Source of the DNA: Nonomuraea fuscirosea | Lineage (GTDB): Bacteria; Actinomycetota; Actinomycetes; Streptosporangiales; Streptosporangiaceae | Length of the DNA stretch: 64,000 bases | Assembly: GCF_003001935.1 (NCBI RefSeq) | Contig: NZ_PVNG01000003.1 | Location: forward strand, 186,001-250,000 | Direction of reading: 5' to 3' | Part shown: in pieces, positions 27,040-42,829 of the stretch | Numbering within the stretch: the first letter of the stretch is position 1 | Layout: each line of letters starts with the position of its first letter | Position numbers and translations under genes: made by a program | The notes under the pieces: model-generated | What the model saw: the letters and a program-made list of their open reading frames with translations, nothing else | Told to the model about the DNA's origin: nothing | Databases searched by the model: none

Positions 27040-27852
27040 ATGAAGTTCCGGTTCAAGGCGCTGCAGCGGATGCGCGAGCCCGACGAGCTCGACTCGCCGA
27101 CGCTGCTGGCCTCGCCGCGCGGCTGGATCGCCACGTTCGTGGTGCTGATCATCGTGGCGGCGGCGTCCGTCTGGTTCTTCGCAGGGCGGCTGCCGGTGAC
27201 GGTGCCCGCGGCGGGGCTGCTCACCCATCCCGCGGGCACCGCCCGGCTGCAGAGCCCGTACGGCGGCACGGTCCGCTCGATGCTGGTCCGCCCCGACGAG
27301 GCCGTGCAGAGGGGCCAGGAGGTGGCCGTGATCACCGTGGACAGCGGGCGGGACCGGACGGTGCACAGCCCGTTCACCGGCCGGGTGGTCGCCTTCTCCG
27401 CGGTGGACGGGCACGTGGTCGGCCAGGGGGAGGAGCTGCTGCTCATCGAGCGCACGGACACCCCCGACGACCGGCTGGTGGCGATGCTGTTCGTGCCGGT
27501 GGACCGGGCGATGGGCGTGGTGCCGGGCAAACCCGTGGACCTGTCGGTCTCCTCGGCCCCGCCGGGCGCGTTCGGGCTGCTGCGCGGCCGGGTGCACTCC
27601 GTCAGCTCCTATCCGGTCATGCTGGAGCACGCGGCCGACCTGGTGGGCGGCCTGGAGGCGGCCCGCGGTTACCTCAAGGGCGTCCCGGCCAGGCTCGTCA
27701 TCGTCGACCTCGAACGCGACCCCGCCACGCCGTCCGGCTACGCCTGGTCCACCCAGAACGGGCCGCCGGCCCGCCTGCAGTCGCAGGTGTCGGTGGCCGG
27801 CGCGATCGGCCTGGGCAGCCAGACTCTGTTCGACCTGCTGCTCGGACGCTGA
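27040..27852 (+). CDS. NHLP-system HlyD-like secretion protein
   Basis: Membrane fusion-type protein of 270 residues with a single N-terminal transmembrane helix (about 31-50, WIATFVVLIIVAAASVWFF) and an extracytoplasmic biotinyl-lipoyl-like barrel-sandwich (AGLLTHPAGTARLQSPYGGT; later VHSPFTGRVVAF). It matches the HlyD component that accompanies NHLP bacteriocin exporters. In a Gram-positive bacterium it probably shapes the exporter exit rather than spanning a periplasm. It lies between the dehydrogenase and the peptidase-containing ABC transporter, 10 bases before the latter. Confidence 0.85.
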   Translation: MKFRFKALQRMREPDELDSPTLLASPRGWIATFVVLIIVAAASVWFFAGRLPVTVPAAGLLTHPAGTARLQSPYGGTVRSMLVRPDEAVQRGQEVAVITVDSGRDRTVHSPFTGRVVAFSAVDGHVVGQGEELLLIERTDTPDDRLVAMLFVPVDRAMGVVPGKPVDLSVSSAPPGAFGLLRGRVHSVSSYPVMLEHAADLVGGLEAARGYLKGVPARLVIVDLERDPATPSGYAWSTQNGPPARLQSQVSVAGAIGLGSQTLFDLLLGR

Positions 27853-27862
27853 AGGGGGAGAT

Positions 27863-30118
27863 GTGACGACCACGAGCGCTCCCGCGCAGGCGAGCCCGCC
27901 GGCCCCGCCACCGTCACCGCCACGACCTGCCAGGCGGTGGCGGTGGCGGCGGCGCACGCCGACGGTGATCCAGATGGAGGCGGTGGAGTGCGGGGCCGCC
28001 TCGCTGGCGATGATCCTCGCGTACTACGGCAAGTTCGTCCCCCTGGAGGAGCTCCGCTCGGCCTGCGGCGTCTCCCGTGACGGCGCCAAGGCCTCCAGTG
28101 TGATCGCCGCCGCCCGCCGCTACGGGCTGATCGCCAGGGGCTTCCAGATGGAGGCGGAGGACCTGCGCTCCCTGACCGGGCCGGCCATCGTGTTCTGGGC
28201 GTTCCAGCACTTCATGGTCCTCGAAGGGGTGCGCAGCCGGTTCGGCAGGAAGGCCGTGGCGGTCAACGACCCGGCCGGCGGCCCGCGCATGATCGACTGG
28301 GACGACTTCGACTCGGGCTTCACCGGCGTGGTGCTGACCTTCGAGCCGGGGCCCGGCTTCCGGCCCGGCGGGCGGCCCACCCGGGTCGGGCAGGCGCTGC
28401 TGACCCGCCGCATGCCGTCGGGGCGGGCGCTGCCGCTGGTGCTGCTGGCCAGCCTGCTGCTGGTCGTCCCCGGCATCATCGGGCCCGCGTTCAGCCGGGT
28501 GTTCATCGACCGGGTGCTGACCGGGCGCGACCCCGGTTACCTGCTGCCGCTGCTGTTCGGCGTCGGGTTCACGGCTCTCGCGGTGTTCGTGCTGACCTCG
28601 GTGCAGCGGCACTACCTGCTGCGCATGGAGATCAGGCTCGGGCTGGTCAGCTCGGCCCGCTTCTTCCGGCACCTGCTGCGACTACCCGTGGAGTTCTACC
28701 TCCAGCGCCGGCCCGCCGAGGTGGCCAAGCGGGTGCAGGCCAACGACACCGTCGCCGAGATCCTCTCCCGCGACCTGGCCATCACCCTGGTCAACCTGGT
28801 CCTGGTGCTGTTCTACGGCATCGTCCTGATCCGCTACGACCTGCTGCTCGGCCTGGTCGGGGTGGGCATGGCGCTGGTCAACATCCTGGTGCTGCGGCAG
28901 GTGTCCAGGGCGCGCACGGACGCCGTGGCCGCGCTCCGCGCCGACCTGGGCAACCTCACCTCGACCACGTTCAACACCCTGCAGCTCATCGAGACCGTCA
29001 AGGCCACCGGCGCGGAGCCCGCCGCGTTCCAGCGCTGGTCGGGCTTCCTGGCCAAGGCGGTCACCGCCAAACAGCGGCTGGGCGTGGCCACGGCCACGCT
29101 GACCGTCGTGCCGCCGCTGCTGGCCGGGGTCAACAGCGGGCTCATCCTGCTGATCGGCGGTCTGCGGGTGGTGGACGGCGTGATCAGCGTGGGCATGCTG
29201 GTGGCCTTCCAGACCCTGCTCACCTCGCTGTCCAGGCCGGTCACCCAGCTCACGAACCTGGGCGGGCAGCTCCAGGACATCTCCGCCGACGTCTGCCGCC
29301 TGTACGACGTCGAGAAGTACCCCGTGGCCACCACCTTCGAGCGGCGCGAGCCCGTACGGGAGCGGGAGGAGGGCCGCCTGGACGGGCGGCTGGAGTTCGA
29401 CCGGGTGACGTTCGGCTACAACGCGCTGGCCACGCCCGTGATCAAGGACCTGTCGTTCACGCTGGTGCCGGGACGCAGGGTGGCGATCGTCGGCAACTCC
29501 GGCAGCGGCAAGTCGACCGCGGGCAAGCTGGCCGCGGGCCTCTACGTGCCGACCTCCGGCCGGGTGCTGCTCGACGGCCTGCCCAGGGAGGAGCTGCCCA
29601 GGGAGGTGGTGGCCGCGTCGGTCGCGTACGTGGACCAGGACATCACCCTGTTCGAGGGCACCGTGCGCGACAACCTCACCCTGTGGAGCGACGACGTGCC
29701 GGACGAGGTGGCCGTCTCCGCGCTGCGTGACGCCGCCCTGTTCGACCTGATCGCCACCAGGCCGGGCGGTCTCAACAGCGGCGTGCTGGAGGGCGGGCGC
29801 AACTTCAGCGGCGGCCAGCGGCAGCGGCTGGAGCTGGCCAGGGCCCTGTCGCTGCGGCCGACCCTGCTGATCCTGGACGAGGCGACCAGCGCGCTGGACC
29901 CGGAAACGGAGCGGACCATCGCCGACCACCTGCGCAGACGCGGCTGCGGCTGCCTCATCATCGCCCACCGGTTGTCCACCGTGCGCGACGCCGACGAGAT
30001 CATCGTCCTCGACCGGGGCGAGGTGGTCGAGCGCGGCCGGCACGCCGAGCTGCTGGCGTTGGACGGGCACTACGCGGAGCTGCTCAGGAGCTCGCGCAGG
30101 AACGGGGAGGCGGGATGA
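27863..30118 (+). CDS. NHLP-type peptidase-containing ABC exporter (PCAT)
   Basis: Exporter of 751 residues that should both cut off the leader and move the mature peptide out of the cell. The N-terminal C39 cysteine protease domain has Cys43 in VECGAASLAM, His116 in FQHFMVLEG and Asp136 in VNDPAGG, so the catalytic triad is intact. Six transmembrane helices follow (about 190-480), then the ATPase domain with Walker A GNSGSGKST, signature FSGGQRQRLELARAL and Walker B LLILDEATS. C39 proteases cut after GG/GA-type sites, which matches the IAAG end of the precursor leader. The GTG start follows GAAGGGGGAG. Its stop overlaps the next ABC gene by 4 bases. Confidence 0.93.
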   Translation: MTTTSAPAQASPPAPPPSPPRPARRWRWRRRTPTVIQMEAVECGAASLAMILAYYGKFVPLEELRSACGVSRDGAKASSVIAAARRYGLIARGFQMEAEDLRSLTGPAIVFWAFQHFMVLEGVRSRFGRKAVAVNDPAGGPRMIDWDDFDSGFTGVVLTFEPGPGFRPGGRPTRVGQALLTRRMPSGRALPLVLLASLLLVVPGIIGPAFSRVFIDRVLTGRDPGYLLPLLFGVGFTALAVFVLTSVQRHYLLRMEIRLGLVSSARFFRHLLRLPVEFYLQRRPAEVAKRVQANDTVAEILSRDLAITLVNLVLVLFYGIVLIRYDLLLGLVGVGMALVNILVLRQVSRARTDAVAALRADLGNLTSTTFNTLQLIETVKATGAEPAAFQRWSGFLAKAVTAKQRLGVATATLTVVPPLLAGVNSGLILLIGGLRVVDGVISVGMLVAFQTLLTSLSRPVTQLTNLGGQLQDISADVCRLYDVEKYPVATTFERREPVREREEGRLDGRLEFDRVTFGYNALATPVIKDLSFTLVPGRRVAIVGNSGSGKSTAGKLAAGLYVPTSGRVLLDGLPREELPREVVAASVAYVDQDITLFEGTVRDNLTLWSDDVPDEVAVSALRDAALFDLIATRPGGLNSGVLEGGRNFSGGQRQRLELARALSLRPTLLILDEATSALDPETERTIADHLRRRGCGCLIIAHRLSTVRDADEIIVLDRGEVVERGRHAELLALDGHYAELLRSSRRNGEAG

Positions 30119-33048
30119 CGACGCCGCTGCTCTCGTCGTTCTCGCCGTTCTTCACCGACGCGGCCACCCCGGTGGACTACTCCGCCGACAACCTCTTCGT
30201 CGTGTCGGGCGTGCGCGAGGTGCTGCTGGTCGAGCGGGGCGAGGTCGACCTGTTCGCCGTGCGCCTGGACAACGGGCGTCCCGTGGGCCGCTGGAACTAC
30301 CTGTGCCGGGTCCGCGAGGGCACCCTGCTGCCCGGCGCGCCGCGCGGCCCGCGGCACGGCATCGTGGGCCGTCCCGTGCCCGGCTCGGTCGTCTCGCGCG
30401 TCCCGCTGGCCAGGCTGCGCGAGCTGGCCGGCACCGGGCGCTCGGCCACCATGTCCACCGCCGACTACGGGCTGGCCGTCAAGCAGCTCGTCCGCGGCCT
30501 GGAGGCGGGCATGGTGTCGCTGGCCACGGCGCTGCGCGACGGGCTGCCGCCGCGCGAGTTCGTCCCCCTGGCCTCCGACACGGTCACCGTGCTCGGTCAG
30601 CACCGCGCGGCCAGGTCGGTGGACGGCGTGCGCTGGCTCAGCGTCGAGGAGGGCGCGGTCGAGATGCCCGACGGCGTGGCCGGCGTGCTGACCGCGGGCG
30701 CCGAGCTGTCGGTGACCGAACGGGACTGGGTGGTCGCCACCACCCCCACCCGGCTGCGCTCGAAGTCCACCTGGCAGCTGCTGGCGGACGAGACGCTCTG
30801 GAGCCGCTGGGTCGAGCACGCCATCCGCTTCCTCTACACCGTGGACCGCCGGGTCGAACGGCAGCGGGCCCGCGAGCTGCGCTCGCTGGAGCGCAGGAAG
30901 GAGCAGGAGTCGGCCACCACCGTGGCGGCCCGGCGCAGCTTCGACACGCTCGTGCGCGACACCGAGGCCAAGGTGCGCCTGGCCGACGTCACCGCCGACC
31001 CGCCGGCCCTGGCCGCGGCCCGGCTGGTGGCCTCGCACGGCGGCTTCACCGTCACCGCGCCGCCGCCGGGGAGCAACAGGGAGGTCGATCCGCTGCAAGC
31101 GATCGCCCTGGCCTCGGGGGTGCGGACCAGATCCGTCCGGCTCGACGACGGCTGGTGGAAACGGGACATCGGCCCCATGGTGGGCTACCTGCGCGACGAC
31201 GAGACGCCCGTGGCGCTGCTGCCGATCGGCTCGCGGTACGTGCTCGCCCAGCCGGGCCAGAGCCGGGTCACCCCCGTCACCAGGGCGGTGGCGGCCACGC
31301 TGTCCAACAAGGCCGAGGTGCTCTACGAGCCGCTGCCGCGCGAAGTGCGCACGGTGGCCGGGCTGCTGCGCTTCGGGCTGGCGCGCAACGGCCACGACCT
31401 GTGGGTGCTCGCCTCGCTCGGCACGATCGTGGCCGTCATCGGCCTGCTCGTGCCCGCGATGACCGGGCTGGTGCTGGGCACGTTCGTGGCGCGGGCCGAG
31501 CGCGACCTCATCGTGCAGGGCGCCGCGCTGGTGATCGGCGGCGCCTTCGTGGCCGGCGCGCTGTCGATCGTCCAGAACGTGGCGGCGCTGCGCATCGAGG
31601 GCCGCGCGTCCGCGCGGGTGCAGGCCGGCGCGTGGACCCGGCTGCTGTCGTTACCCGTCACCTTCTTCGGCCGGTACTCCACCGGCGAGCTGGGCACGAC
31701 CGTGCTGGGCGTGAGCGCGGCCCAGGAACTGCTCTCCGGCGTGATGACCACGGCCACGCTCGGCCTGTTCGGCGGCCTGGCCAACCTCGCCCTCGTCTAC
31801 GTCTACGACGTCCGCCTCGCGCTGCTCGCGACCCTGCTGGTGCTGGCCGGCGTGCTGGTGTGCGCGGTGGCCGGCTTCTTCGAGGTACGCCTCCAGCGCC
31901 GCCTGTACGAGCAGGAGCAGCGGCTGTCGTCCCGGGTGTTCCAGCTCCTGTCGGCGGTGCCCAAGCTGCGTGTGGCCGCCGCCGAGGACCAGGCGTTCGC
32001 CGTGTGGACCCGCGACTTCACCAGGACCAGAGCCACCTCGGCCAAGGCCAGGCGGTTGCAGAACCTGGTCACCACGTTCAACGCGGGCTTCCCGCTCGTC
32101 TGCTCGTGCGTGATCTTCGCCGTGGCGGCCGGGCCGATGCGCGGGGAGCTGCCGATCGCCGCGTTCCTCGCCTTCTTCACCGCCTTCAGCCTGCTCATCG
32201 CCTCGGTGCTGCAGTTCACCGGCGCGGCCATCACCGCCATGAGCATCGTGCCGATGCTGGAGAAGCTGGCGCCCGTCCTGGAGGTCGAGCCCGAGGACGA
32301 CGCGGGCAAGGCCGACCCCGGCGACCTGTCGGGCCGCATCACGTTGTCCAAAGTCTCCTTCCGCTACGGCGCGGACGGCCCCAGGGCGCTGAGCGAGATC
32401 GACCTGTCGATCGAGCCGGGCGAGTTCGTCGCGATCGTGGGGCCGACCGGCAGCGGCAAGTCCACGGTCCTGCGCCTGCTGCTCGGCTTCGAGCAGCCCG
32501 ACTCGGGCAGCGTCATGTACGACGGCCAGGACCTGGGCGAGCTCGACCTCGGCGCGGTGCGCCGGCAGTGCGGGGTGGTGCTGCAGAACGGCGCCCTGCT
32601 GGCCGGCGACATCAGGCAGAACATCGTCGGCAGCACCAGCCACACCATCGACGACGCCTGGGAGGCCGCCGCGATGGCCGGCATCGACGGCGACATCACC
32701 GCCATGCCGATGGGCATGCACACCGTCCTGTCCGAGGGCACCCACACGCTCTCCGGCGGGCAGCGGCAGCGCATCATGATCGCCAGGGCGCTGGTCTCAC
32801 GCCCGCGCATCGTCTTCTTCGACGAGGCCACCAGCGCCCTGGACAACCCGGCGCAGAACGTCATCGCCGAGAGCACCCGCAGGCTGAACGCCACCCGCGT
32901 CGTCATCGCCCACCGGCTGTCCACCATCAGGGACGCCGACAAGATCCTCGTGCTCGACGGCGGGCGCGTCGTCCAGCAGGGCACCTATGACGAGCTGCTG
33001 GGCGACGAGCAGGGCCTGTTCGCCCGCCTGGCCCGGCGGCAGATCTGA
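30115..33048 (+). CDS. NHLP-type ABC exporter, second subunit (permease/ATPase)
   Basis: Protein of 977 residues matching the second ABC subunit of NHLP bacteriocin systems. The first 420 residues are a poorly defined cytosolic module without a peptidase triad. Then come six membrane helices (about 435-720) and an ATPase with Walker A GPTGSGKST, signature LSGGQRQRIMIARAL and Walker B IVFFDEATSALD. It probably forms a heterodimer with the peptidase-containing exporter, with which it is translationally coupled (ATGA). A TTA codon at residue 513 (31651-31653) may tie its translation to bldA. A small hairpin follows the stop. Confidence 0.9.
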   Translation: MTTPLLSSFSPFFTDAATPVDYSADNLFVVSGVREVLLVERGEVDLFAVRLDNGRPVGRWNYLCRVREGTLLPGAPRGPRHGIVGRPVPGSVVSRVPLARLRELAGTGRSATMSTADYGLAVKQLVRGLEAGMVSLATALRDGLPPREFVPLASDTVTVLGQHRAARSVDGVRWLSVEEGAVEMPDGVAGVLTAGAELSVTERDWVVATTPTRLRSKSTWQLLADETLWSRWVEHAIRFLYTVDRRVERQRARELRSLERRKEQESATTVAARRSFDTLVRDTEAKVRLADVTADPPALAAARLVASHGGFTVTAPPPGSNREVDPLQAIALASGVRTRSVRLDDGWWKRDIGPMVGYLRDDETPVALLPIGSRYVLAQPGQSRVTPVTRAVAATLSNKAEVLYEPLPREVRTVAGLLRFGLARNGHDLWVLASLGTIVAVIGLLVPAMTGLVLGTFVARAERDLIVQGAALVIGGAFVAGALSIVQNVAALRIEGRASARVQAGAWTRLLSLPVTFFGRYSTGELGTTVLGVSAAQELLSGVMTTATLGLFGGLANLALVYVYDVRLALLATLLVLAGVLVCAVAGFFEVRLQRRLYEQEQRLSSRVFQLLSAVPKLRVAAAEDQAFAVWTRDFTRTRATSAKARRLQNLVTTFNAGFPLVCSCVIFAVAAGPMRGELPIAAFLAFFTAFSLLIASVLQFTGAAITAMSIVPMLEKLAPVLEVEPEDDAGKADPGDLSGRITLSKVSFRYGADGPRALSEIDLSIEPGEFVAIVGPTGSGKSTVLRLLLGFEQPDSGSVMYDGQDLGELDLGAVRRQCGVVLQNGALLAGDIRQNIVGSTSHTIDDAWEAAAMAGIDGDITAMPMGMHTVLSEGTHTLSGGQRQRIMIARALVSRPRIVFFDEATSALDNPAQNVIAESTRRLNATRVVIAHRLSTIRDADKILVLDGGRVVQQGTYDELLGDEQGLFARLARRQI

Positions 33049-33693: not shown

Positions 33694-33879
33694 TCAGTAG
33701 CTGGGCCGGCGGCTGAGCACGATGCCCACGGCCAGGAAGAGCAGGCCGGCCACCCCGTACACGATGGCCAGGGACGTCGCGGGCGGCTGCTGGCTGGCGT
33801 TGACCACCGCCAGGCCGAGTCCGACGATCCCGCTGATGTAGCAGAAGATCGCCACGAAGATCTTCCAGAACGGACTCAT
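33694..33879 (-). CDS. small two-helix membrane protein
   Basis: Hypothetical protein of 61 residues with two predicted membrane helices (about 5-26 and 36-55) and a basic end RRPSY. Its ATG overlaps the methyltransferase stop codon, so it is translationally coupled as the last gene of the P450-methyltransferase unit. No family was recognised. Small membrane proteins at operon ends in peptide clusters are sometimes immunity proteins, which is an inference only. Confidence 0.72.
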   Translation of the reverse strand: MSPFWKIFVAIFCYISGIVGLGLAVVNASQQPPATSLAIVYGVAGLLFLAVGIVLSRRPSY

Positions 33880-34757
33880 TGCGCATTCCTCCAGAACCTT
33901 GCGGGTTTCTCCGGAACTGTCTCCGGTACTGAGGGGGCCGGGCCGCCGTGCGGCGCGGTCCCTGCGGCGGCGAAGCCGAGGAGCATGACCCAGGCGTCCG
34001 GGTCGGCCAGGAAGCGCCGCCAGCGGTCGGCCGCCAGGGCCAGCTCGCCCATCGAGAGCGCCCCCGAGGCCACCAGCGGCACCAGGCGCTCAGGCCCCAG
34101 GTGCGGGGCGAAGGCGGCCGTGGGATGGGTGTCGTTCGTGGCGGCGAACGGGCGCAGCACCACGTCGGTGAAGCCCTCCCGCCGCAGCAGCCGGGTGAGC
34201 TTCCTGCCGATCTGACGGTCCCCGCCGGCGCCGCGCTGCGCCTGGGCCATCGTGGCGTGCACGGAGGCCAGCTCGGGGTACATCGGATCGGCCAGGCCCC
34301 ACAGCATGCTGTCGACCTCGACGGCGACGAGGGTGCCGCCGGGCCGCAGCACCCGCATCGCCTCGGCCAGCATCGGAGCGGGGTCGGTGAGGTGCTGCAG
34401 TACGTACCGCAGCAGTACGCCGCCGACGCTTCCCGTACGTAGCGGCAGCCGGGCGCCGTCGGCGGCCACGAGCGGCGCGCCGCAGCCGCCCGCGTGGCGG
34501 AGCAGCCCCGCGTCCACGTCCAGCGCGATGACGTCCAGGCCCGGCTCGGCGGCGCGCAGCCTGCGGGTGACCGCGCCCGAGCCGGCGCCCAGCTCCAGCA
34601 GCGGCCCCGCGCGGGTCAGGCCGAGGTCGCGCATGATGCGCAGCTCCTCCTCGAAGGAGAGCGCCGCCTGCGCTTCGAGGCGGGCCAGCTCGCCGTCCAC
34701 GCCGCCCCAGGTGGTGTTGGCGACGTCGTACGAGCCCGCCGCGGCCGCCGCGCTCAC
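33876..34757 (-). CDS. class I SAM-dependent methyltransferase
   Basis: Cytosolic methyltransferase of 293 residues. The SAM-binding motif I reads LLELGAGSGAVTRRL (about residues 53-67), motif II has IALDVDAGLL, and VLLRYVLQHLTDPAPML plus LRPGGTLVAVEVDS give the later motifs of UbiE/COQ5-type enzymes. The GTG start overlaps the upstream P450 stop (GTGA), and its own stop overlaps the small membrane gene. Inside the TOMM cluster it is a candidate for methylating the N-terminus or C-terminus of the mature peptide, but small-molecule methylation is equally possible on sequence alone. Confidence 0.87.
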   Translation of the reverse strand: MSAAAAAGSYDVANTTWGGVDGELARLEAQAALSFEEELRIMRDLGLTRAGPLLELGAGSGAVTRRLRAAEPGLDVIALDVDAGLLRHAGGCGAPLVAADGARLPLRTGSVGGVLLRYVLQHLTDPAPMLAEAMRVLRPGGTLVAVEVDSMLWGLADPMYPELASVHATMAQAQRGAGGDRQIGRKLTRLLRREGFTDVVLRPFAATNDTHPTAAFAPHLGPERLVPLVASGALSMGELALAADRWRRFLADPDAWVMLLGFAAAGTAPHGGPAPSVPETVPEKPARFWRNAQ

Positions 34758-36160
34758 CGGGGCCTCGGAACCATCATCAGGCCGTGCCTGGGCCGCAGCG
34801 TGACCAGGGCCTCCGGCTCGACGGGGAATTCGGGGACCAGCTCCATGCGCAGGTCACGCAGCAGGACGGCGAGCACGAGCGTGGCCTCGACCAGGGCGAA
34901 GTGCCGTCCCAGGCAGATGCGCGGGCCGCCGCCGAAGGGCAGGTACTGGTGGCTGAGGTGCCGCGCCGCCGCCTCGGGGTCGAAGCGATCCGGCCGGTAG
35001 GCGGCGGGGTCGTCCCAGTAGCGCGGGTCGCGGTGCAGCACCCACGGGCTGACGCAGACCAGCGATCCGGCCGGGATGTCGTAGCCGTCGATCACGTCGG
35101 CCGCCACGCTGCGCCGCGAGATGAGCCAGACCGGCGGGTAGAGCCGCATCGCCTCCTGCACGGCCTGCCTGCACCTGCGCAGCGCCGGCAGGTCGGCGGC
35201 GGCCGGCGCCCGCCCGCCCAGCACCTCGTCGATCTCCGCGCGGACCGCGGCGGCCGCCTCGGGGTGGCGGTCGAGCAGGTAGAGCGTCCAGGTCAGGGAC
35301 TTGGCGGTGGTCTCGTGCCCGGCCATGACGATGGTCAGCACCTGATCCCGCAACTCCACGTCGGCCATGCCGCCCGGCCCGGTCACCGGACAGGTCCCGG
35401 GCGGGGCGTCGGTTTCGGTCCCGGGTCCGGCTCCGGGTGCGGTCTCGGGGCGGGGGTGGCCTTCGGCGAGCAGGGCGCTGAGCAGGTCGTCGCCCGCGCC
35501 GCCCGCGCGGCGGGCCGCGATGATCAGATGGGTCACCTGGTCGAGGAACGTCCGCGCCCGCTGGAAGCCCAGATAGCGCGCGGCCGTGTCGGCCGGATCG
35601 GGGTCGTCGCTGGGTACGTAGTGCCCGATGAACCGGTTGACCGCGTCCACCGCCCGGCCGAACCCCTCGCCCGCGCCGCCGATGTCGGTGCCGAGCATGG
35701 CCTTCACGATCACGGTCAGGGTGAGCGAGGTCAGGTCGTGGTCGACCCGTACCGACGCGGCGCCCCGCCACTGCGCCGCCAGGTGCTCCGCCGCCGCCAC
35801 GATGACCTGGTCGAACCGGTCGACCTCGGCGGGCCTGAAGGCCGGCGCGCACCTGCGCCGCTGCGCCGCCCACTCGGCGCCGTTGCTGGTCAGCAGGCCG
35901 TTGCCGAGCAGCGGGCGCAGCATGTCGTCGTCCGGCGTGCGGTCCTTGGTGTAGTTGGCGCCGTTCTCCTTGAGTACGTACCTGGCCAGATCCGGCCGGT
36001 TGAGCATGTAGACCGGCTCCCCGTCGGCGTCGTGGCGGGTGACGTCCCCGTGGGCCGCCATCGCGGTGACGAACTCCAGCGGCGCGTCCCGCATGGCTCT
36101 CAAGCTCTGGGTCCCCGCCGGTCCAGGCGGCACCCGGGGGGATACGTACGTCCCGGACAT
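34754..36160 (-). CDS. cytochrome P450 (canonical)
   Basis: Haem monooxygenase of 468 residues with no membrane anchor. The I-helix motif AGHETTAKSL, the ExxR of helix K (EAMRLYPPVW) and the haem-binding loop FGGGPRICLG with Cys416 are all intact, so normal oxygen activation is expected. It resembles CYP102/CYP4-like single-domain bacterial P450s. I chose the ATG at 36160 because GGGAG lies 5 bases upstream; the GTG at 36166 overlaps that site. It is divergent from the precursor gene across 239 bp and heads an operon with the methyltransferase and small membrane protein. Hydroxylation or oxidative tailoring of the azole peptide is the likely role. Redox partner genes are not seen nearby. Confidence 0.92.
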   Translation of the reverse strand: MSGTYVSPRVPPGPAGTQSLRAMRDAPLEFVTAMAAHGDVTRHDADGEPVYMLNRPDLARYVLKENGANYTKDRTPDDDMLRPLLGNGLLTSNGAEWAAQRRRCAPAFRPAEVDRFDQVIVAAAEHLAAQWRGAASVRVDHDLTSLTLTVIVKAMLGTDIGGAGEGFGRAVDAVNRFIGHYVPSDDPDPADTAARYLGFQRARTFLDQVTHLIIAARRAGGAGDDLLSALLAEGHPRPETAPGAGPGTETDAPPGTCPVTGPGGMADVELRDQVLTIVMAGHETTAKSLTWTLYLLDRHPEAAAAVRAEIDEVLGGRAPAAADLPALRRCRQAVQEAMRLYPPVWLISRRSVAADVIDGYDIPAGSLVCVSPWVLHRDPRYWDDPAAYRPDRFDPEAAARHLSHQYLPFGGGPRICLGRHFALVEATLVLAVLLRDLRMELVPEFPVEPEALVTLRPRHGLMMVPRPR

Positions 36161-36399
36161 GAGCACTCCCGATGGCTTACGTAAACGAATATTCGGATAC
36201 GCATTTCCGGCCGCTGAATACGTATATGTATTTCGTACGGTTCCGGTCCGCGCATTTGCAGCGTACCTTTCGAACTGGGGCCTCTCAATACTTAATCAAT
36301 GGCTCCCGAAATTAAGTCTGGGCACCCGGAAATAGGCGTGCAAGACTCCGTTCGAGACGGCGCACCGGCGCCGATGGGGAAAAGCTCCAGGAGGACGCA
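36161..36399. promoter_or_regulatory. divergent control region P450 / precursor peptide
   Basis: AT-rich non-coding stretch. The palindrome CGAATATTCG (36186-36195) is followed by GGATACGCATTTCCGG (36195-36210) and GAATACGTATA (36216-36226), then CGTACGG (36234-36240). TACGCATT, GCATT-YCCGG, TACGTAT and CGTACGG recur in the YcaO control region at 23190-23254 in similar order, suggesting common control by the LAL regulator. The precursor ribosome-binding site AGGAGG is at 36388-36393. Confidence 0.6.
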
Positions 36400-36774
36400 A
36401 TGGCCCTGAATCCCAGAGAGCGGACTGAATTCGTCAACGCCTACACGCGAGTACTGATCACCGCGTGGTCGAGCGAGGAGTTCTCGGCCAAGCTCGACAG
36501 CAACCCGCGTGAGGCGCTGGCGGAATCCGGCCTCGAGGTTCCCGCGGGCGCCCAGATCAACGTCGTGCGCAACGTTCCCGACAACGCCCACGACTCCAAC
36601 CTCGACGTCCAGGTCTCCCTGTGGGAGCGCGGGCTGGAGACGGGGACGTACGAGTTCCACATCCCCGAGACGCCGCAGATCGACATGGCCGAGCTGAGCG
36701 AGGGCGACCTCGACTCGATCGCGGCCGGCGTCGACATCAACTGCTGCTGCTGCCCGTGCTGCTGCTGCACCTGA
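36400..36774 (+). CDS. NHLP-leader TOMM precursor peptide with poly-cysteine core
   Basis: Ribosomal precursor of 124 residues. Residues 1-110 form a nitrile hydratase alpha-subunit-like leader (FVNAYTRVLITAWSSEEF and NPREALAESGLEVPAG are the recognisable parts). It ends in a C39 protease-type site, ELSEGDLDSIAAG, with cleavage expected after Gly110. The core is VDIN followed by CCCCPCCCCT: eight cysteines in two blocks of four around one proline, with a C-terminal Thr. With the YcaO fusion and SagB dehydrogenase, up to eight thiazoles and one (methyl)oxazole could form. Each Cys is TGC, giving two (TGC)4 runs around CCG. The ATG is 7 bases from AGGAGG. It is followed by an ABC exporter. I do not recognise a described product with this core. 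Confidence 0.93.
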   Translation: MALNPRERTEFVNAYTRVLITAWSSEEFSAKLDSNPREALAESGLEVPAGAQINVVRNVPDNAHDSNLDVQVSLWERGLETGTYEFHIPETPQIDMAELSEGDLDSIAAGVDINCCCCPCCCCT

Positions 36775-36822: not shown

Positions 36823-37764
36823 ATGTCCGACGATCAGGCGAACCCGATCCGGGTACGGGGGCTGCGCAAGCAGTACGGCTCCAGTCACACCCTGCGAGGT
36901 GTGGACCTGGACGTCCGGCCAGGAGAGGTGTTCGCCTTACTCGGCCCCAACGGCGCCGGCAAGACGACGACGGTCGAGATCCTCGAGGGCGTGCGCAGGC
37001 GTACAGGTGGAGAGGTCCAGGTCCTCGGCCGTGACCCGGCCGAGGACTCACCCCGGTGGCGCGCCAGGCTCGGCATCGTGCCGCAGACCACCGGCGCGTA
37101 CACCGACCTGACCGTACGCGAGGTGGTCGAGCACTTCGCCTCCTTCTACCCGGCGCCGCTGCCCGCCGATCAGGTGATCGGCATGGTGGGGCTGGGCAAG
37201 CAGGAACGCAAGCAGGCCCAGACGCTGTCGGGCGGCCAGCTGCGCCGCCTCGACGTGGCCGTGGGCGTCGTCGGCGACCCCGACCTGATCTTCCTGGACG
37301 AGCCCACCACCGGGCTCGACCCGGAGGCGCGGGCGGAGGCGTGGGACCTGGTGCGTTACTTCGCCGACCAGGGCAAGACGACCGTGCTGACCACCCACTA
37401 CCTCGACGAGGTGGAGGCGCTGGCGCAGCGGGCCGCCGTCATCGTCGCGGGCGCCATCGTGGAGACCGGCGCCGTCAGCGAGCTCGGCGGGCGGCGCGAG
37501 GTGCCCGCCACGGTCAGCTTCACCGCGACCGGCGGCCTGAGCGCGGCCGGCCTGCCGGAACTGCCTCCGGACACGACCGTGGACGCGCGTACGGACGACG
37601 TCATCACGCTGCGCACCCACGGGCCCACGCGGGCCCTGGCCGCGCTGCTGCCGTGGGCGGCCGAGGCCGGCGTCGGCGAGCTGCGGGACCTGCGGGTCCA
37701 CCGGCCCACGCTGGAGGACGTCTATCTCAAGCTGATCCGCGAGAACCAGGGGGAACTGTCATGA
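36823..37764 (+). CDS. ABC transporter ATPase (DrrA-like)
   Basis: ATP-binding subunit of 313 residues for an ABC-2 exporter. Walker A GPNGAGKTTT, Q-loop VPQTTGAYTDL, signature LSGGQLRRLDVA, Walker B LIFLDEPTTGLD and the H-loop TTHYLDE are present. A C-terminal extension of about 90 residues resembles DrrA/CcmA-type proteins that export antibiotics. A TTA codon at residue 39 (36937-36939) is rare for this genome. It lies 48 bases after the precursor and overlaps the permease start by 4 bases. Self-resistance to, or export of, the azole peptide is the likely job. Confidence 0.9.
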   Translation: MSDDQANPIRVRGLRKQYGSSHTLRGVDLDVRPGEVFALLGPNGAGKTTTVEILEGVRRRTGGEVQVLGRDPAEDSPRWRARLGIVPQTTGAYTDLTVREVVEHFASFYPAPLPADQVIGMVGLGKQERKQAQTLSGGQLRRLDVAVGVVGDPDLIFLDEPTTGLDPEARAEAWDLVRYFADQGKTTVLTTHYLDEVEALAQRAAVIVAGAIVETGAVSELGGRREVPATVSFTATGGLSAAGLPELPPDTTVDARTDDVITLRTHGPTRALAALLPWAAEAGVGELRDLRVHRPTLEDVYLKLIRENQGELS

Positions 37765-38615
37765 CCAGCTCGGACGCGGTGGTCGCGGGACAGAGCCGCG
37801 CGGTCGCGTACGGCGGGGGCTCGGGACTGTGGCGGGCGTCGGTCGCGCGCTCGTCGGTGGAGCTGAAGTCGTTCTTCCGCAACCGGCAGTCGCTGTTCTT
37901 CACGCTGCTGCTGCCGATCGTGCTGCTGCTGGTGCTCGGCTCGATCTTCTCCGGTACGGTCCCCGGCACCCACACCGACTTCAAGCAGATGTTCGTGGCC
38001 GGGATCATCGCCTGCGGCATCATGAGCGTCAGCTTCAACGGCCTGGCGATCAACATCGCGATCGAGCGGGACAACGGCATGATCCGCCGCCTGGCCTCCT
38101 CGCCGATGCCGAAGACCGCGTACTTCGTCGGCAAGATCGTCCGGGTGGTCGTGACCGGCGTCCTTGAGGCCGCGATCCTGCTGGTCGTCGGGGTGGCGCT
38201 GTTCCACCTGCCGATGCCGTCGGACCCCGGCCACTGGATCACGTTCTCGTGGGTGCTGCTGCTCGGCGCGGCGTCCTGCTCGCTGCTGGCGGTGGCGTTC
38301 AGCGCGGTCATCCCGAACGCCAGGTCGGCGGCGGCGATCGTGACGCTGCCGTTCCTGGTGCTGCAGTTCATCTCGGGGGTGTTCTTCCCCTACAGCGAGC
38401 TGCCCGCCTGGATGCAGACGATCGCGGCGTTCTTCCCGCTGAAGTGGATGACGCAGGGGCTGCGCTCGGTGTTCCTGCCCGCGGACTTCGCCGTGGTGGA
38501 GCCCGCCCACGCGTGGGAGCTGGGCAGGACCGCGGTCGTGCTGGGCTCGTGGTGCGCCGCGGCGCTGCTGCTGAGCCTGCTGACCTTCCGCTGGCGCGGC
38601 GCGAACGTCAGGTAG
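37761..38615 (+). CDS. ABC-2 family transporter permease (DrrB-like)
   Basis: Membrane subunit of 284 residues with six predicted helices, an N-terminal cytosolic elbow (SSVELKSFFRNRQSLFF) and the ABC-2 segment LPFLVLQFISGVFFPYSELP near residues 195-215. It pairs with the upstream ATPase (ATGA overlap). Its 3' end overlaps the convergent P450 gene by 8 bases. Likely exports the modified peptide or gives immunity. Confidence 0.9.
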   Translation: MTSSDAVVAGQSRAVAYGGGSGLWRASVARSSVELKSFFRNRQSLFFTLLLPIVLLLVLGSIFSGTVPGTHTDFKQMFVAGIIACGIMSVSFNGLAINIAIERDNGMIRRLASSPMPKTAYFVGKIVRVVVTGVLEAAILLVVGVALFHLPMPSDPGHWITFSWVLLLGAASCSLLAVAFSAVIPNARSAAAIVTLPFLVLQFISGVFFPYSELPAWMQTIAAFFPLKWMTQGLRSVFLPADFAVVEPAHAWELGRTAVVLGSWCAAALLLSLLTFRWRGANVR

Positions 38616-39795
38616 TGAGGGTGAAGCCGGTCAGCCGCCTCGGCACCATGCTCGGCGCCCACACGGGCGGGTCGCCGTCGGGACGCAGCTCCGGATACCT
38701 GCTCAGCAGGCCGCCGAGCAGCACCGCTCCGGCGTGCCTGACCAGCGGGGCGCCGAGGCAGAGATGGGTGCCCGCGCCGAAGGCGAGATGGGGGTTGGGC
38801 GAGCGCAGCACCATCAGCTCGTCGGGTCCGGCGAACACCGCCGGGTCGCGGTTGGCCGCTCCGACCAGGGCCAGCACCCTGGCCCCCGCCGGGATCACCC
38901 CGCCGTCCAGCCGTACCTCCTCGGTGGTCACCCTGGCCGTGAACGGGATCGGCGACTCCAGGCGCAGCAGCTCGTCCACGGCCGACATGGCCGCCTCGGG
39001 GCTCTCGCGTACCTGCTCGGCGGCGTCCTTCCTGGGCAGCAGCCAGTGCAGCGCGTTGCCCACCATCTCGGCCAGCGGCTTCCACCCGCCGACGACGGTG
39101 AGCGCGGCGATCCCGAGCATCTCCGCCCTGGTCAGCCGCTCGTCGGCGGCCAGCCTCCCGAACGGCGACCCACCCGCCGCTGTCCGGACGGCTTCGGCCG
39201 CCGCGTCGGCGCGGTCGCCGAGGAAGCGGGTCAGCTCGCCCATCGCGGCCCGGCCCGCCGCCGCGGCCTGCGGTCCCGCCAGCGGGTCGAGGTTGACCGA
39301 CACCCGCGCGGACAGCTCGGCGAAGGCGGCACGGTCGGCGGCCGGGAGCCCGAACAGCTCGGCCAGCACGCCGGTGGCCAGCGGCTCGCCGATGTCGGCC
39401 GTGGCCTCGATCCGCTCGCGCCCGGCCAGGGCGTCCAGCACGTGCTCGATCTCGGCGGCGATGCCGCCGGAGATCCCGCGGATCGCGGCCGGCCCCATCA
39501 GCAGCGCCCCGGGCGACCGTAAACGCTGGTGCTCGGGCGGGTCGGTGGTGAGCATCGACGGCGGCAGCTCGTCGTCCCTGACCCGCTCGCGCTGCCCCAG
39601 CGCCGCCGAGAAGCGCGGGTCGCGCAGCGCCAGCGCGCAGTCGGCGTGCGTGGTCAGCAGCCACATGCGCGAGGTGACGTCGAAGTGGACCGGATCGTGC
39701 TCGCGCAGCCACCGGTACGCCGGATACGGGTCCAGCCGCCCGCGAGGAGAGAACGGGTGGGCCAGGTGGGCGGGCAACGTACGGGGTGCCGTCAT
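38608..39795 (-). CDS. cytochrome P450 with non-canonical I-helix
   Basis: Bacterial class I P450 of 395 residues. The haem loop FGAGTHLCLG with Cys346 and helix-K motif DELLRLESPI are intact. However, the oxygen-activation motif of the I-helix, normally (A/G)Gx(D/E)T, reads VVGGWKPLAEM around Trp238, with no acid-alcohol pair. Such changes occur in P450s that catalyse unusual reactions or that accept carrier- or peptide-bound substrates. The start ATG at 39795 is divergent from the FAD oxidase gene with 51 bp between; GGAGATGCG is just upstream. It belongs to the cluster by position and is probably a tailoring enzyme for the azole peptide. Confidence 0.88.
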   Translation of the reverse strand: MTAPRTLPAHLAHPFSPRGRLDPYPAYRWLREHDPVHFDVTSRMWLLTTHADCALALRDPRFSAALGQRERVRDDELPPSMLTTDPPEHQRLRSPGALLMGPAAIRGISGGIAAEIEHVLDALAGRERIEATADIGEPLATGVLAELFGLPAADRAAFAELSARVSVNLDPLAGPQAAAAGRAAMGELTRFLGDRADAAAEAVRTAAGGSPFGRLAADERLTRAEMLGIAALTVVGGWKPLAEMVGNALHWLLPRKDAAEQVRESPEAAMSAVDELLRLESPIPFTARVTTEEVRLDGGVIPAGARVLALVGAANRDPAVFAGPDELMVLRSPNPHLAFGAGTHLCLGAPLVRHAGAVLLGGLLSRYPELRPDGDPPVWAPSMVPRRLTGFTLTT

Positions 39796-39846: not shown

Positions 39847-41100
39847 GTGGCAGAGCTCGATGTGGTCGTGATCGGTGCGGGCGTCAGCGGCCTGGCCGCC
39901 GCCGCGAAGCTGGCGGGCGCCGGCCTCGCGGTCGAGGTGCTGGAGGCCAGGCAGCGGATCGGCGGCCGGATCCACACCGACGAGGAGTCGGGGCTGGAGC
40001 TCGGCGCGCAGGTCGTGCACGGCGACCGGAACCCGATCGGCGTGCTGCCAGGACTGCCCGCCCTGGTGCCGCTGCCCCGCTACGCCGCCAGGGTGCTGCT
40101 GGACGGCGCGCCGCACCCGCTGTCCGCACTGCGCCCGCCCCCGCCGCTGCTTGAGGAGCGGCTGGTGGCGGGTGCCACGTCGCGGCCTTCGGCAGGTGCG
40201 ACGGGGCGGCTTTCCGCGGGTGTGAGCGGGGACGTGCCGGTGGCGCAGTGGCTGAAGGAGCAGACGGCGGGCTCTCCCGCCGCGCTGGAGCCGGCCGCCG
40301 AGTGGTTCAGGCAGAACTGGGCCGCCGGTCCCGAGGCGCTGAGCGCGCTCGGCGTGGCCGTGGCCCGCCGCGCCGACGCCGTGGGACGAGGCGAGTTCGC
40401 CCTGCCCGGCGGCTTCGGCACACTGCCCGAGCGGCTGGCGGACGGCCTGCGGGTACGCCTCGGCGACCCGGTCGCCCGCCTGACCTGGTCGCCCGGCCGG
40501 GTACGCGCGGTCACCGCCGCCGGCCACGTCGCGGACGCGGTCGCGGCCGTGGTCACGGTGCCGCCGCCGGTCGTCGCCGACGGCAGGCTCGCGATCAACG
40601 ACCTGCCGGTACGCAAGCAGGCGGCGGCCCACGAGCTGCGTCCTGGCGACGCCTGGTGCGCCTTGGTCACCTACCCGGAGCCCGCACCCGAGTCCGTCGT
40701 GGTCTTCGACCCGGAAGGACGGCTCGGTTTCGTCACCGCCACGGCCGGACGCCGCGAGGTGGTGGTCATGGCGAAGGCCGAGGCGGCCGGCCGGGCCAGA
40801 GCAGCCTGGCGGGACAACGCTCTGCTGCGGCAGTTGGCCGGGGCGCTGCCCTGGACCAGGGGAGTGGAGCCGGAGTCGGCGCGGGTGGCCGACTGGGGGG
40901 CCGATCCGTGGGCGGGCGGCGCGTACACGTACCCGGGGGTGGGGGCGCTGTGGGCGCCCGCGGCCTGGGCCGAGCCGATGGGCGGGACGTTGTTCTTCGC
41001 CGGCGAGGCCACGACCGGCCTGGCCGGGCCGCCCATGGCGCACATGGCGATGGCCGGCGGGGAACGCGCGGCCACTGAGCTGATCGGAGCACTGAAGTGA
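39847..41100 (+). CDS. flavin-dependent amine oxidase family protein
   Basis: FAD protein of 417 residues. The N-terminal dinucleotide-binding fold reads VVIGAGVSGLAAAAKL and runs into EVLEARQRIGGRI, the standard start of monoamine oxidase/phytoene desaturase-like enzymes. The C-terminal FAD segment is LFFAGEATTGLAGP. GTG at 39847 is preceded by AGAGGAG. It is first of a tightly coupled set: FAD oxidase, Rieske protein, alpha/beta hydrolase and VOC protein, each overlapping the next. Possible roles are oxidation of an amine or alpha-carbon, or desaturation, in tailoring the RiPP; the substrate is not evident. Confidence 0.87.
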   Translation: MAELDVVVIGAGVSGLAAAAKLAGAGLAVEVLEARQRIGGRIHTDEESGLELGAQVVHGDRNPIGVLPGLPALVPLPRYAARVLLDGAPHPLSALRPPPPLLEERLVAGATSRPSAGATGRLSAGVSGDVPVAQWLKEQTAGSPAALEPAAEWFRQNWAAGPEALSALGVAVARRADAVGRGEFALPGGFGTLPERLADGLRVRLGDPVARLTWSPGRVRAVTAAGHVADAVAAVVTVPPPVVADGRLAINDLPVRKQAAAHELRPGDAWCALVTYPEPAPESVVVFDPEGRLGFVTATAGRREVVVMAKAEAAGRARAAWRDNALLRQLAGALPWTRGVEPESARVADWGADPWAGGAYTYPGVGALWAPAAWAEPMGGTLFFAGEATTGLAGPPMAHMAMAGGERAATELIGALK

Positions 41101-42032
41101 TCGGACAGACCACGGCAGAAGGCCCGCCGGGCGACGGAGACCTGCACGGCGGCTGGTTCCTGCTGGCGCTCGACGACGAACTCGCTCCCGGCCTCACACC
41201 GCTCAGGCTGGGCGGCGTGAACCTGATCGCGGTGCGCGACGACGACGGCGTCCGCGTGTTCGAGGCCACCTGCCCGCACCGGGGCGCCCATCTCGGCTAC
41301 GGCGGCAAGCTGGACAGGCAGTGCGTCGTCTGCCCCTTCCACGGCAAGCGGATCGCGCTCGGCGACCGGTCCCGCCGCTGGTCGGTGGGCGAGGTGCGGA
41401 CGCTGCACGCCGGGGCGGCGCTGTTCGCCCGGCTGTCCGGCGACCCGGGCGACGACCGGGGCTTCGAGCAGGCGATCAAACAGGCGGCGGAGGAGCTGAC
41501 GTTCGTCGCGGCGGTGAACCAGCGGGTCGCGGTCCCGGCCGAGTACGTGGTCGAGAACGCCTTCGACGCCGAGCACTTCAGCACCGTCCACCTGGTGCCG
41601 GCGGTGCGGGGCATGCGGGTCAGCATGGGGGAGCACGACGAGCTGGTCATCGAGGGGGAGTTCCGGACCAAGGCGCCGCCGTGGGAGAAGGAGCGGCGGC
41701 TGAACTTCGCCTCCCGGTTCGTGGCCCGCGCCTACAGCCCGCACCTGGTGCTGACCGAGCTGGGCACGGCGGCGGCGCCGTACACGATCATCACGGGAGC
41801 GGTGCCGGACGGGACGGGCAGCGTGGGGCGGGTGGTCATCGGCGTCCGGCCGGACCAGAAGGAGTCGCTGCCCGCGCTCGTGCACGGCGCCCGCTACGCC
41901 TTCGACCAGGACCGGGTGGTCTGGGACCACCTGGACGTGCGCGCGCCGCAGCGCTACGACGCGGCCGACACGTCCGTGATCGCCTTCCGCCGCTTCTGCG
42001 CCGGTTTCGCCCCGGCGGAGGTGACGTCGTGA
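41097..42032 (+). CDS. Rieske non-haem iron oxygenase
   Basis: Oxygenase alpha-subunit-like protein of 311 residues. The Rieske cluster ligands are Cys59 and His61 in CPHRG, and Cys79 and His82 in CPFHG. The mononuclear iron site is Asp157, His160 and His165 in NAFDAEHFSTVH. It is short compared with ring-hydroxylating dioxygenases (about 450) and closer in size to the PaO/KshA-like single-component group. GTG start overlaps the FAD oxidase stop (GTGA). Ferredoxin and reductase partners are not adjacent. Likely a hydroxylase or oxidative-cleavage step on the RiPP; unusual in TOMM clusters. Confidence 0.9.
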   Translation: MIGQTTAEGPPGDGDLHGGWFLLALDDELAPGLTPLRLGGVNLIAVRDDDGVRVFEATCPHRGAHLGYGGKLDRQCVVCPFHGKRIALGDRSRRWSVGEVRTLHAGAALFARLSGDPGDDRGFEQAIKQAAEELTFVAAVNQRVAVPAEYVVENAFDAEHFSTVHLVPAVRGMRVSMGEHDELVIEGEFRTKAPPWEKERRLNFASRFVARAYSPHLVLTELGTAAAPYTIITGAVPDGTGSVGRVVIGVRPDQKESLPALVHGARYAFDQDRVVWDHLDVRAPQRYDAADTSVIAFRRFCAGFAPAEVTS

Positions 42033-42829
42033 GCCTGCATGTGCGGACGCACGGGGACGGCCCCGCGGTGCTGTGGATCCACGGCTACACGATGGACTCC
42101 TCGGTCTGGGAGCCGCTGTGGGGGCTGCTGCCCGGCTGGCGGCACGTCGGCGTGGACCTGCCGGGCCACGGCCGGTCGCGGCCGCTGCGGCCGGGCACGT
42201 CGCTGCCCGCGCTGGCGGCGGAGCTGGCGGAGCTGGCCCGTGCGGAGCGGGCCACGCTGGTGGTGGCCGAGTCGATCGGCTCCATGATCGCCCTGCAACT
42301 GGTCATCGACCATCCCGGCGACGTGCGCGGGCTGGTCGTCGGCTCGCCGACCATCGCCGGCGCCCCCGCCGAGCCGGGCACCGCGGGGCGTTACCGCACG
42401 CTGGCCGGGCTGGCCAGGATGGGCGTGGACGGCGAGCGGCTGGCCGACGTGTGGATGGCGGCCCCGCCGGACATCTTCCGCGGCACCGAGCGCCATCCCG
42501 AGCTGCGCGCCAGGCTGCGCGCGATCGTGGCCAGGCACTCGTGGCGCGAGCTGCGCGACGGCTCCATGTACGGCCTGAGCAAGCACGTCCACACGGTGGA
42601 CGATCTGCGCGGCATCCGGGCGCGCACCCTGGTCGTGGTGGGCGTGGAGGACATGCCGGGCTTCCGGGCGAGCGCGGAGCTGCTGCGCGGCTCCGTTCCC
42701 GGTTGCGGCGTGATCACCGTGCCCGACGCCGGGCACCTGTGCATGATCGAACGCCCCGCCGTCGTGGCGCCCGTCATCGGCGGCCACCTGCGGGCGGCGA
42801 CGAGGGAGGTGCAGCATGCCGATTCATGA
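42029..42829 (+). CDS. alpha/beta hydrolase
   Basis: Cytosolic hydrolase of 266 residues. The oxyanion segment is IHGYTMDSSVW, the strand after it VGVDLPGHGRSRP, and the nucleophile elbow is VVAESIGSMIA. Its first glycine is replaced by Ala (AESIG instead of GxSxG). The Asp lies near VGVED and the His is in DAGHLCMIE. GTG start overlaps the Rieske stop by 3 bases, and the 3' end overlaps the VOC start by 14 bases. It may cleave an ester or amide during maturation, or remove a protecting group. Function beyond the fold is not readable. Confidence 0.85.
   Translation: MSLHVRTHGDGPAVLWIHGYTMDSSVWEPLWGLLPGWRHVGVDLPGHGRSRPLRPGTSLPALAAELAELARAERATLVVAESIGSMIALQLVIDHPGDVRGLVVGSPTIAGAPAEPGTAGRYRTLAGLARMGVDGERLADVWMAAPPDIFRGTERHPELRARLRAIVARHSWRELRDGSMYGLSKHVHTVDDLRGIRARTLVVVGVEDMPGFRASAELLRGSVPGCGVITVPDAGHLCMIERPAVVAPVIGGHLRAATREVQHADS

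Follow-up and report, generated by a model that had tools for sequence, protein, structure and literature searches.

A candidate azole-peptide proteusin precursor with a proline-split polycysteine core in Nonomuraea fuscirosea and its relatives

Background

MprC, a YcaO enzyme with a LynD-like recognition domain, heterocyclises residues behind a proteusin-type leader with a preference for thiazole, and experiments with MprE7/MprC showed that the L(X)4L motif and the first helix of the leader are used (passages of PMC12455567). The same passages report that MprC installed two to six rings, and those on carnazolamide report eight azoles among 20 candidate residues for CcaB/CcaC (PMC10676384).

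Here we analysed a window of 64,000 nucleotides from Nonomuraea fuscirosea (contig NZ_PVNG01000003.1, positions 186,001 to 250,000; coordinates below are those of the window unless another locus or contig is named), which contains a small gene with eight cysteines in its tail. Comparison of sequences makes it probable that this gene encodes the precursor of an azole-containing proteusin, whose tail a YcaO enzyme and a SagB-type oxidase are predicted to turn into two stiff blocks, each of thiazoles joined directly to one another, with a proline as the hinge between them.

Results

The precursor gene and its leader

Translation confirmed the reading frame and the CCCC-P-CCCC-T core given in the first-pass annotation of the window. 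The frame of 375 bases starts with ATG, ends with TGA, has AGGAGG immediately 5' of it, and is translated as MALNP...DLDSIAAGVDINCCCCPCCCCT, the C-terminus being IAAG-VDIN-CCCC-P-CCCC-T (Table 1). The GC contents of its three codon positions (0.60/0.46/0.92) are typical of the coding genes of the window. Of the 873 stop-to-stop frames in the window with 30 amino acids or more, it is the sole carrier of runs of four cysteines, and it matched the family profile with an E value of 1e-73, the next best value being 1.2; in the whole genome, protein search and family profile each found one match. The stretch between the cut site and the first cysteine is 3 to 12 residues long among the relatives, indicating a weak constraint, and also varies in sequence. 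The 14-residue core proposed earlier is thus correct as a sequence, but its VDIN part may lie outside the functional product.

As a single sequence, the leader scored just below the cut-off of TIGR03793 in NCBIfam (45.7 against 50.9 bits) and was also below that of PF02979. A profile made from 50 relatives matched the solved proteusin precursor 8tb1 with an E value of 3.6e-6, in an alignment that includes the segment ELS-x-x-DL, and it also matched nitrile hydratases, the best of them at 1e-6. In an AlphaFold model of the precursor, for which the confidence was only fair (pLDDT 71.6), the predicted leader fold could be overlaid on 8tb1 with 1.6 Å over 44 columns and a weak Foldseek E value of 0.18, and the Foldseek search with this model gave no match below E 0.001. 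The profile matches and the overlay bear out the proposal of a nitrile-hydratase-like leader; judged by its profile, the leader is a member of the nitrile-hydratase-like clan, as is expected of a proteusin.

An L(X)4L motif was present ahead of the cut site in all 138 precursors compared, and both L99 and L104 are invariant in the 50 aligned precursors; only the first leucine is a test of conservation, since the second is required by the pattern with which the cut site was defined. When the last 26 amino acids of the leader were compared with solved structures, where the PatE peptide was hoped for, no match was found. In the 50 aligned precursors G110 is invariant and A108 and A109 are kept in at least 90%, and the cluster includes an NHLM exporter with a C39 domain, in agreement with the C39-type cut site IAAG suggested before.

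The gene cluster

The YcaO protein matched LynD (4v1t) over residues 46-804 with an E value of 4.5e-185, and contains SxxxExxE and ExxxQGxxExxER, which we take to be YcaO motifs. Its gene lies 10.7 kb upstream of the precursor gene and that of the SagB-type oxidase, whose family uses FMN as a cofactor, 9.4 kb upstream. The cyclodehydratase and the dehydrogenase that had been read from the letters alone are therefore both present, and they are LynD-like and CyaGox-like by sequence. The C39 domain of NHLM exporter 1 has ECG, HFMV and NDP, presumably the motifs of the catalytic triad, and by the TIGR03794, TIGR03796 and TIGR03797 matches of Table 1 the cluster has the NHLM exporter set with a C39 peptidase that is expected of proteusins. 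A gene for a YCII protein is located downstream of NHLM exporter 2 on the same strand as YcaO; in two other loci (L010 and L011, 6514-7037), two tandem YCII-domain genes end the exporter operon.

Both P450s keep the cysteine motif for haem binding, and the Rieske-type oxygenase showed a remote match to SxtT (E 5e-6). At 23 of the 26 YcaO loci (L036-L061), a relative of the LuxR/MalT-type protein lies no more than 1.5 kb from YcaO, and this protein is possibly the regulator of the cluster. A predicted small membrane protein of 61 amino acids (33694-33879, minus strand) adjoins the methyltransferase gene; the plus-strand frame antisense to it (33701-33838), which was matched in 14 of the 26 loci, is probably its shadow. 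An apparent minus-strand gene of 287 amino acids (41954-42817, 26 of the 26 loci), which looked like a new conserved enzyme, was rejected, as a shadow of the plus-strand alpha/beta hydrolase gene, on the basis of the GC content of codon positions.

The Pfam scan of 34 neighbouring frames found neither TfuA, as expected of a thioamitide cluster, nor a DUF4135 dehydratase, as expected of a dehydrazole cluster, nor PatA/PatG-type subtilisin proteases, as expected of a cyanobactin cluster, and no S8 protease or radical SAM enzyme. Elsewhere in the same genome (G000), a separate multi-YcaO locus of about 42 kb (contig C16:36926-78821) accounts for five of the eight YcaO matches.

Table 1. Features of the window; fractions give the number of loci, among 26, in which a relative was found near the precursor gene
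Feature	Position	Strand	Remarks
Large LuxR/MalT-type regulator adjoining the YcaO gene	20181..23054	-	PF00196, PF13191; possible cluster regulator
YcaO cyclodehydratase fused to leader-recognition domain, 806 aa	23248..25668	+	TIGR03604, TIGR03882, PF02624
SagB-type thiazoline oxidase	25710..27035	+	TIGR03605 E 8e-49; CyaGox 5lq4 E 8e-63
NHLM-type HlyD secretion protein	27040..27852	+	TIGR03794 E 9e-40, below cut-off
NHLM ABC exporter 1 with C39 peptidase domain	27863..30118	+	TIGR03796 above cut-off; PF03412
NHLM ABC exporter 2	30115..33048	+	TIGR03797 above cut-off
SAM-dependent methyltransferase	33876..34757	-	PF08241; 25/26
Cytochrome P450 a	34754..36166	-	PF00067; haem motif FGGGPRICLG; 24/26
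Precursor peptide gene	36400..36774	+	124 aa; nitrile-hydratase-like leader 1-110, core 111-124 VDINCCCCPCCCCT
L(X)4L leader motif L99-L104, LSEGDL	36694..36711	+	Predicted docking strand for YcaO recognition domain
AAG cut site A108-A109-G110	36721..36729	+	Predicted C39 cleavage after G110
Putative ring-forming box CCCC-P-CCCC-T	36742..36771	+	Residues 115-124; from core counts
DrrA-type ABC ATPase	36823..37764	+	TIGR01188 E 5e-66, below cut-off; predicted export/self-resistance; 25/26
DrrB/SagH-like ABC-2 permease	37755..38615 (start provisional)	+	PF01061; 25/26
Cytochrome P450 b	38608..39795	-	Haem motif FGAGTHLCLG; 25/26
FAD-dependent amine oxidase-fold oxidoreductase	39847..41100	+	PF01593 E 2e-41; 25/26
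Rieske-type oxygenase	41097..42032	+	PF00355, 2Fe-2S motif; 26/26
Alpha/beta hydrolase	42029..42829	+	PF12697 E 1e-18; found by conservation; 26/26

Relatives and their loci

The protein search of leader and core that had been proposed as a check listed at least 120 relatives: we used the best 120 of 191 matches to the single sequence and the best 120 of 419 matches to the profile, and both searches together, with the query added and one fragment removed, yielded 138 sequences that have a core. Because these proteins are the best-ranked of the 191 and 419 matches, distant cores are under-sampled. The organisms among the matches listed belong to Nonomuraea, Microbispora, Sphaerisporangium, Streptosporangium, Streptomyces, Kitasatospora, Yinghuangia, Planomonospora and Nakamurella, and many of the other relatives listed are metagenome proteins. 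Pfam accession PF27793 is precomputed on many of the relatives among the matches listed, and was not reported for the precursor of the window in the protein-family scan.

A scan of named genomes gave 26 precursor loci, and a close YcaO homologue was found in all of these genomes (46-88% identity, E 1.1e-222 or better), with SagB beside it in each case. In 25 genomes YcaO is on the contig of the precursor, at a distance of 8.3-22.6 kb (median 12.7 kb); in the remaining one (L024), the two are on separate contigs, YcaO at 1.4 kb and the precursor at 9.8 kb from the end of the respective contig. Four of the 26 YcaO matches carry a TGA, at match residue 1, 1, 6 or 27, before the conserved part. 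The neighbour counts of Table 1, to which a glyoxalase-like protein (14 loci) and the YCII protein (six loci) should be added, refer to flanks of at most 10 kb, with genes further off counted as missing, and YcaO is outside most of these flanks. The order of the two halves of the cluster differs between loci, which indicates that the association of precursor and YcaO was kept through rearrangement.

In a sample of the phylum, 10 of 296 genomes, including our own, had a match at E 0.001. Seven of these matches were short and weak, covered residues of about 16-64 only, and are probably nitrile hydratases; the strong ones were from our own genome, from G230 (E 5e-30, with a tail free of cysteine) and from G215 (tail CCCCCPCCSCT). 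The distant precursor of G215 (L080, contig C116, around position 1200) has a leader without the usual cut site, and a YcaO match lies alongside it at the start of the contig. In a sample of the family, five of 150 genomes, again including our own, had a match at E 1e-20, and the five genomes of the same genus listed in this sample had none. Since the matches of G332, G334 and G418 look identical to named loci in sequence or position, these samples are not independent of the set of 26 loci. The precursors form a real, patchily distributed and apparently uncharacterised sub-family of the azole-containing proteusins.

Residues of the core

After exclusion of P0083, a fragment that lacks the core, and P0002, which is the query read on the reverse strand, we counted the residues at the seven positions flanking the proline, -3 to -1 and +1 to +4, in the 84 distinct cores (588 cells). 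Cysteine was found in 517 cells, serine in 52, threonine in 17, and tyrosine and alanine in one each, so that serine or threonine occupies 69 of the 71 cells without cysteine. The tyrosine derives from a core with a shorter run of cysteines, and the alanine is at position +4 of one core. Cysteine is invariant at -2 and +1, and serine and threonine occur at five of the seven positions, often at -1, +2 and +3; some of those at -1 could be insertions, not substitutions. In 73 of the 84 cores the proline is followed by exactly five residues, and in these the cells from +1 to +4 contain 258 Cys, 29 Ser, 4 Thr and 1 Ala; the other 11 cores depart from this length. Position +5 is threonine in 68 cores and serine in five, and nine other cores end at +4.

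Using Fitch parsimony on a leader tree of the 138 sequences, we obtained 27 losses of cysteine, 25 of which were to serine (20) or threonine (5). The binomial probability of this result is 5e-12 against 2/7, the one-step codon expectation for serine, which ignores transition bias, and the tree was built from short leaders; a change from cysteine to threonine requires two base changes. When position +4 was left out because it mixes substitutions with the end residues of shorter cores, 20 of 21 losses were to serine or threonine (P 2e-10).

Nine further copies of the core were also found. The eight with the proline inside the run hold 49 Cys, 6 Ser and 1 Ala, with serine once and alanine once directly after the proline, and the ninth ends in PCCCCCC. 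Exceptions to the usual tail include an L030 copy with serine directly after the proline and the precursor of G454, which ends in PCCCA. Locus L035 contains four precursor-like frames with differing tails, one ending in PCCCCCC, with no split by proline, and one in CCCCCPACSSCTV; two end in glycine.

Discussion

Ring formation and its alternatives

The property common to cysteine, serine and threonine is that they can be cyclised by YcaO enzymes, and the exchange of cysteine for the other two is poorly tolerated where it serves as a metal ligand or in disulfides or thioethers. That the losses of cysteine went mostly to these other azole-forming residues is therefore in keeping with ring formation and speaks against a metal-binding role. 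An unmodified, metallothionein-like peptide would agree with eight cysteines in ten residues, but it is extremely improbable given the 69 of 71 cells above, where retained thiol ligands would be expected, the long NHLP leader, in which a cut site and the L(X)4L motif are present, and the genetic linkage with YcaO and SagB. The first-pass annotation had set this reading aside from the gene context; the core residues are the more direct evidence against it. A partly cyclised product deserves more weight, although we regard it as unlikely; here only part of the cysteines would end up as thiazoles, the others being left as thiols, thiazolines or disulfides, with copper, zinc or iron possibly bound. 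The core positions are not equivalent, with cysteine invariant at -2 and +1 and often replaced at -1, +2 and +3; on the other hand, replacement at five of the seven positions is what is expected if these residues form rings, and serine is a poor replacement for a thiol ligand. Partial cyclisation has parallels in the two to six rings of MprC, the eight azoles among 20 candidates of carnazolamide and the single free cysteine among the nine of Lap-1, as given in passages of the respective papers (PMC12455567, PMC10676384, PMC9576775), and in view of the first two of these it is not certain that eight or nine adjacent residues would all be converted.

The distance of about 11 kb between precursor and YcaO, with other genes in between, counts against the azole-forming proteusin reading. 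As some of these genes are on the minus strand, the YcaO operon might serve another precursor, the cysteine-rich frame being an independent neighbour. This is very unlikely, because no other frame of the window matched the family profile (a search for the precursor's own family only) and because the linkage was kept in 25 of the 26 genomes despite changes of gene order, as also in L081, where a stretch of about 15 kb holds YcaO and the precursor in a different order again. Some YcaO proteins make thioamides together with TfuA (abstract of PMC8120280), and the enzyme of the window might do so instead of forming azoles. We give this hardly any credence in view of the lack of a TfuA match among the 34 neighbouring frames in the Pfam scan, the fused LynD-like recognition domain, the azoline oxidase, and the exchange among cysteine, serine and threonine in the core.

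A proposed pathway and product

By analogy with MprE7/MprC and PatE/LynD, the folded leader of the azole-peptide precursor would dock on the recognition domain of YcaO through L(X)4L. The ATP-using YcaO would then cyclise each cysteine, and probably the final threonine, onto the preceding carbonyl, and SagB would oxidise the rings to eight thiazoles and possibly a terminal methyloxazole. The two P450s, the Rieske oxygenase, the flavin oxidase, the methyltransferase and the hydrolase, to judge from their conservation, may decorate or trim the chain, and the C39 domain of the NHLM exporter would cut after AAG before the product leaves the cell. DrrAB could be a second exporter or provide self-protection.

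The ring-forming core of the first-pass annotation is thus supported, whereas its maximum of eight thiazoles has to be raised to nine rings, since the C-terminal threonine is also conserved; the product itself is a prediction. Judging from the genes, additional oxidation or methylation of the product is probable, and the predicted rigid chain of linked thiazole rings would likely be a new natural product. In its most specific form, proline-hinged oligothiazole rods with eight thiazoles and a terminal methyloxazole, oxidised by the two P450s and the Rieske enzyme and without a characterised counterpart, the proposal is tentative, and we hold it somewhat more doubtful than probable. Thiazole-rich peptides include compounds that bind DNA, the ribosome or metals, which makes an activity of the product plausible; that it is used as an antibiotic or a metal-active small molecule is a guess.

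If the proposal is true, a single small gene specifies a rigid aromatic backbone that is close to a homopolymer, and the cluster bears on how far YcaO runs along neighbouring residues and on the action of P450 and Rieske enzymes on polyazoles. These points are directly testable, as the cluster is carried by Streptomyces, Kitasatospora, Microbispora and Nonomuraea strains, and several of these strains have culture-collection numbers.

Comparison with known systems

The string CCCCPCCCC did not occur in the literature searched, in which, in line with the first-pass annotation, we found no characterised product with a CCCCPCCCCT core; nor was a polycysteine group of proteusins described in the titles and abstract openings of the matches listed or in the passages available. 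Neither the leader nor the number of rings is new alone, since azole proteusins, cytolysins, Lap-1 and marthiapeptide are already known. What appears to be new is the combination of an NHLP leader, a near-homopolymeric cysteine core, a proline hinge kept across genera, and conserved oxygenases.

According to passages of the respective papers, nostatin A (PMC11583998) and MprE/MprC (PMC12455567) have a nitrile-hydratase-like leader, an azoline-forming YcaO and an oxidase, as here, and the relatives of nostatin A also keep an invariant central proline (Pro-Ser-Cys). The nostatin A core has 30 residues with mixed Ser/Thr/Cys and is accompanied by LanM-like and radical SAM enzymes (PMC11583998). 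In contrast, the core in the window consists almost entirely of cysteine, and it is accompanied by P450s, a Rieske oxygenase, a flavin oxidase and a hydrolase. Carnazolamide and the dehydrazoles, as described in passages of PMC10676384, share with our locus the NHLP leader, the cysteine-rich tail, YcaO with a dehydrogenase, and a methyltransferase. They differ in the DUF4135 dehydratase, the S8 protease and the radical SAM enzyme, which are absent from the 34 frames scanned here. The cyanobactin enzymes LynD and CyaGox are the closest solved cyclodehydratase and oxidase by sequence, and the L(X)4L motif is common to both systems. Cyanobactins are macrocycles. Their short unfolded leaders and PatA/PatG proteases, in the passages on them, contrast with the NHLP leader and C39 exporter of our cluster.

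To our knowledge, streptolysin S-type cytolysins and Lap-1 have different leaders and no tailoring oxygenases. The long run of ring-forming residues is a point of likeness: passages of PMC4603692 give at least 10 potentially heterocyclised residues for the cytolysin cores, and those of PMC9576775 give eight thiazol(in)es, with one of nine cysteines free, for Lap-1 of Enterococcus caccae. The leader family and the NHLM exporter genes are the same as in the NHLP family as first described (PMC2887384), in the passages of which we did not find the actinobacterial polycysteine group. Marthiapeptide A, a polythiazole cyclopeptide, has several thiazoles in one peptide, as predicted here, but it is cyclic and is treated under non-ribosomal peptides in the passages of PMC9867215, whereas the peptide of the present locus is ribosomal.
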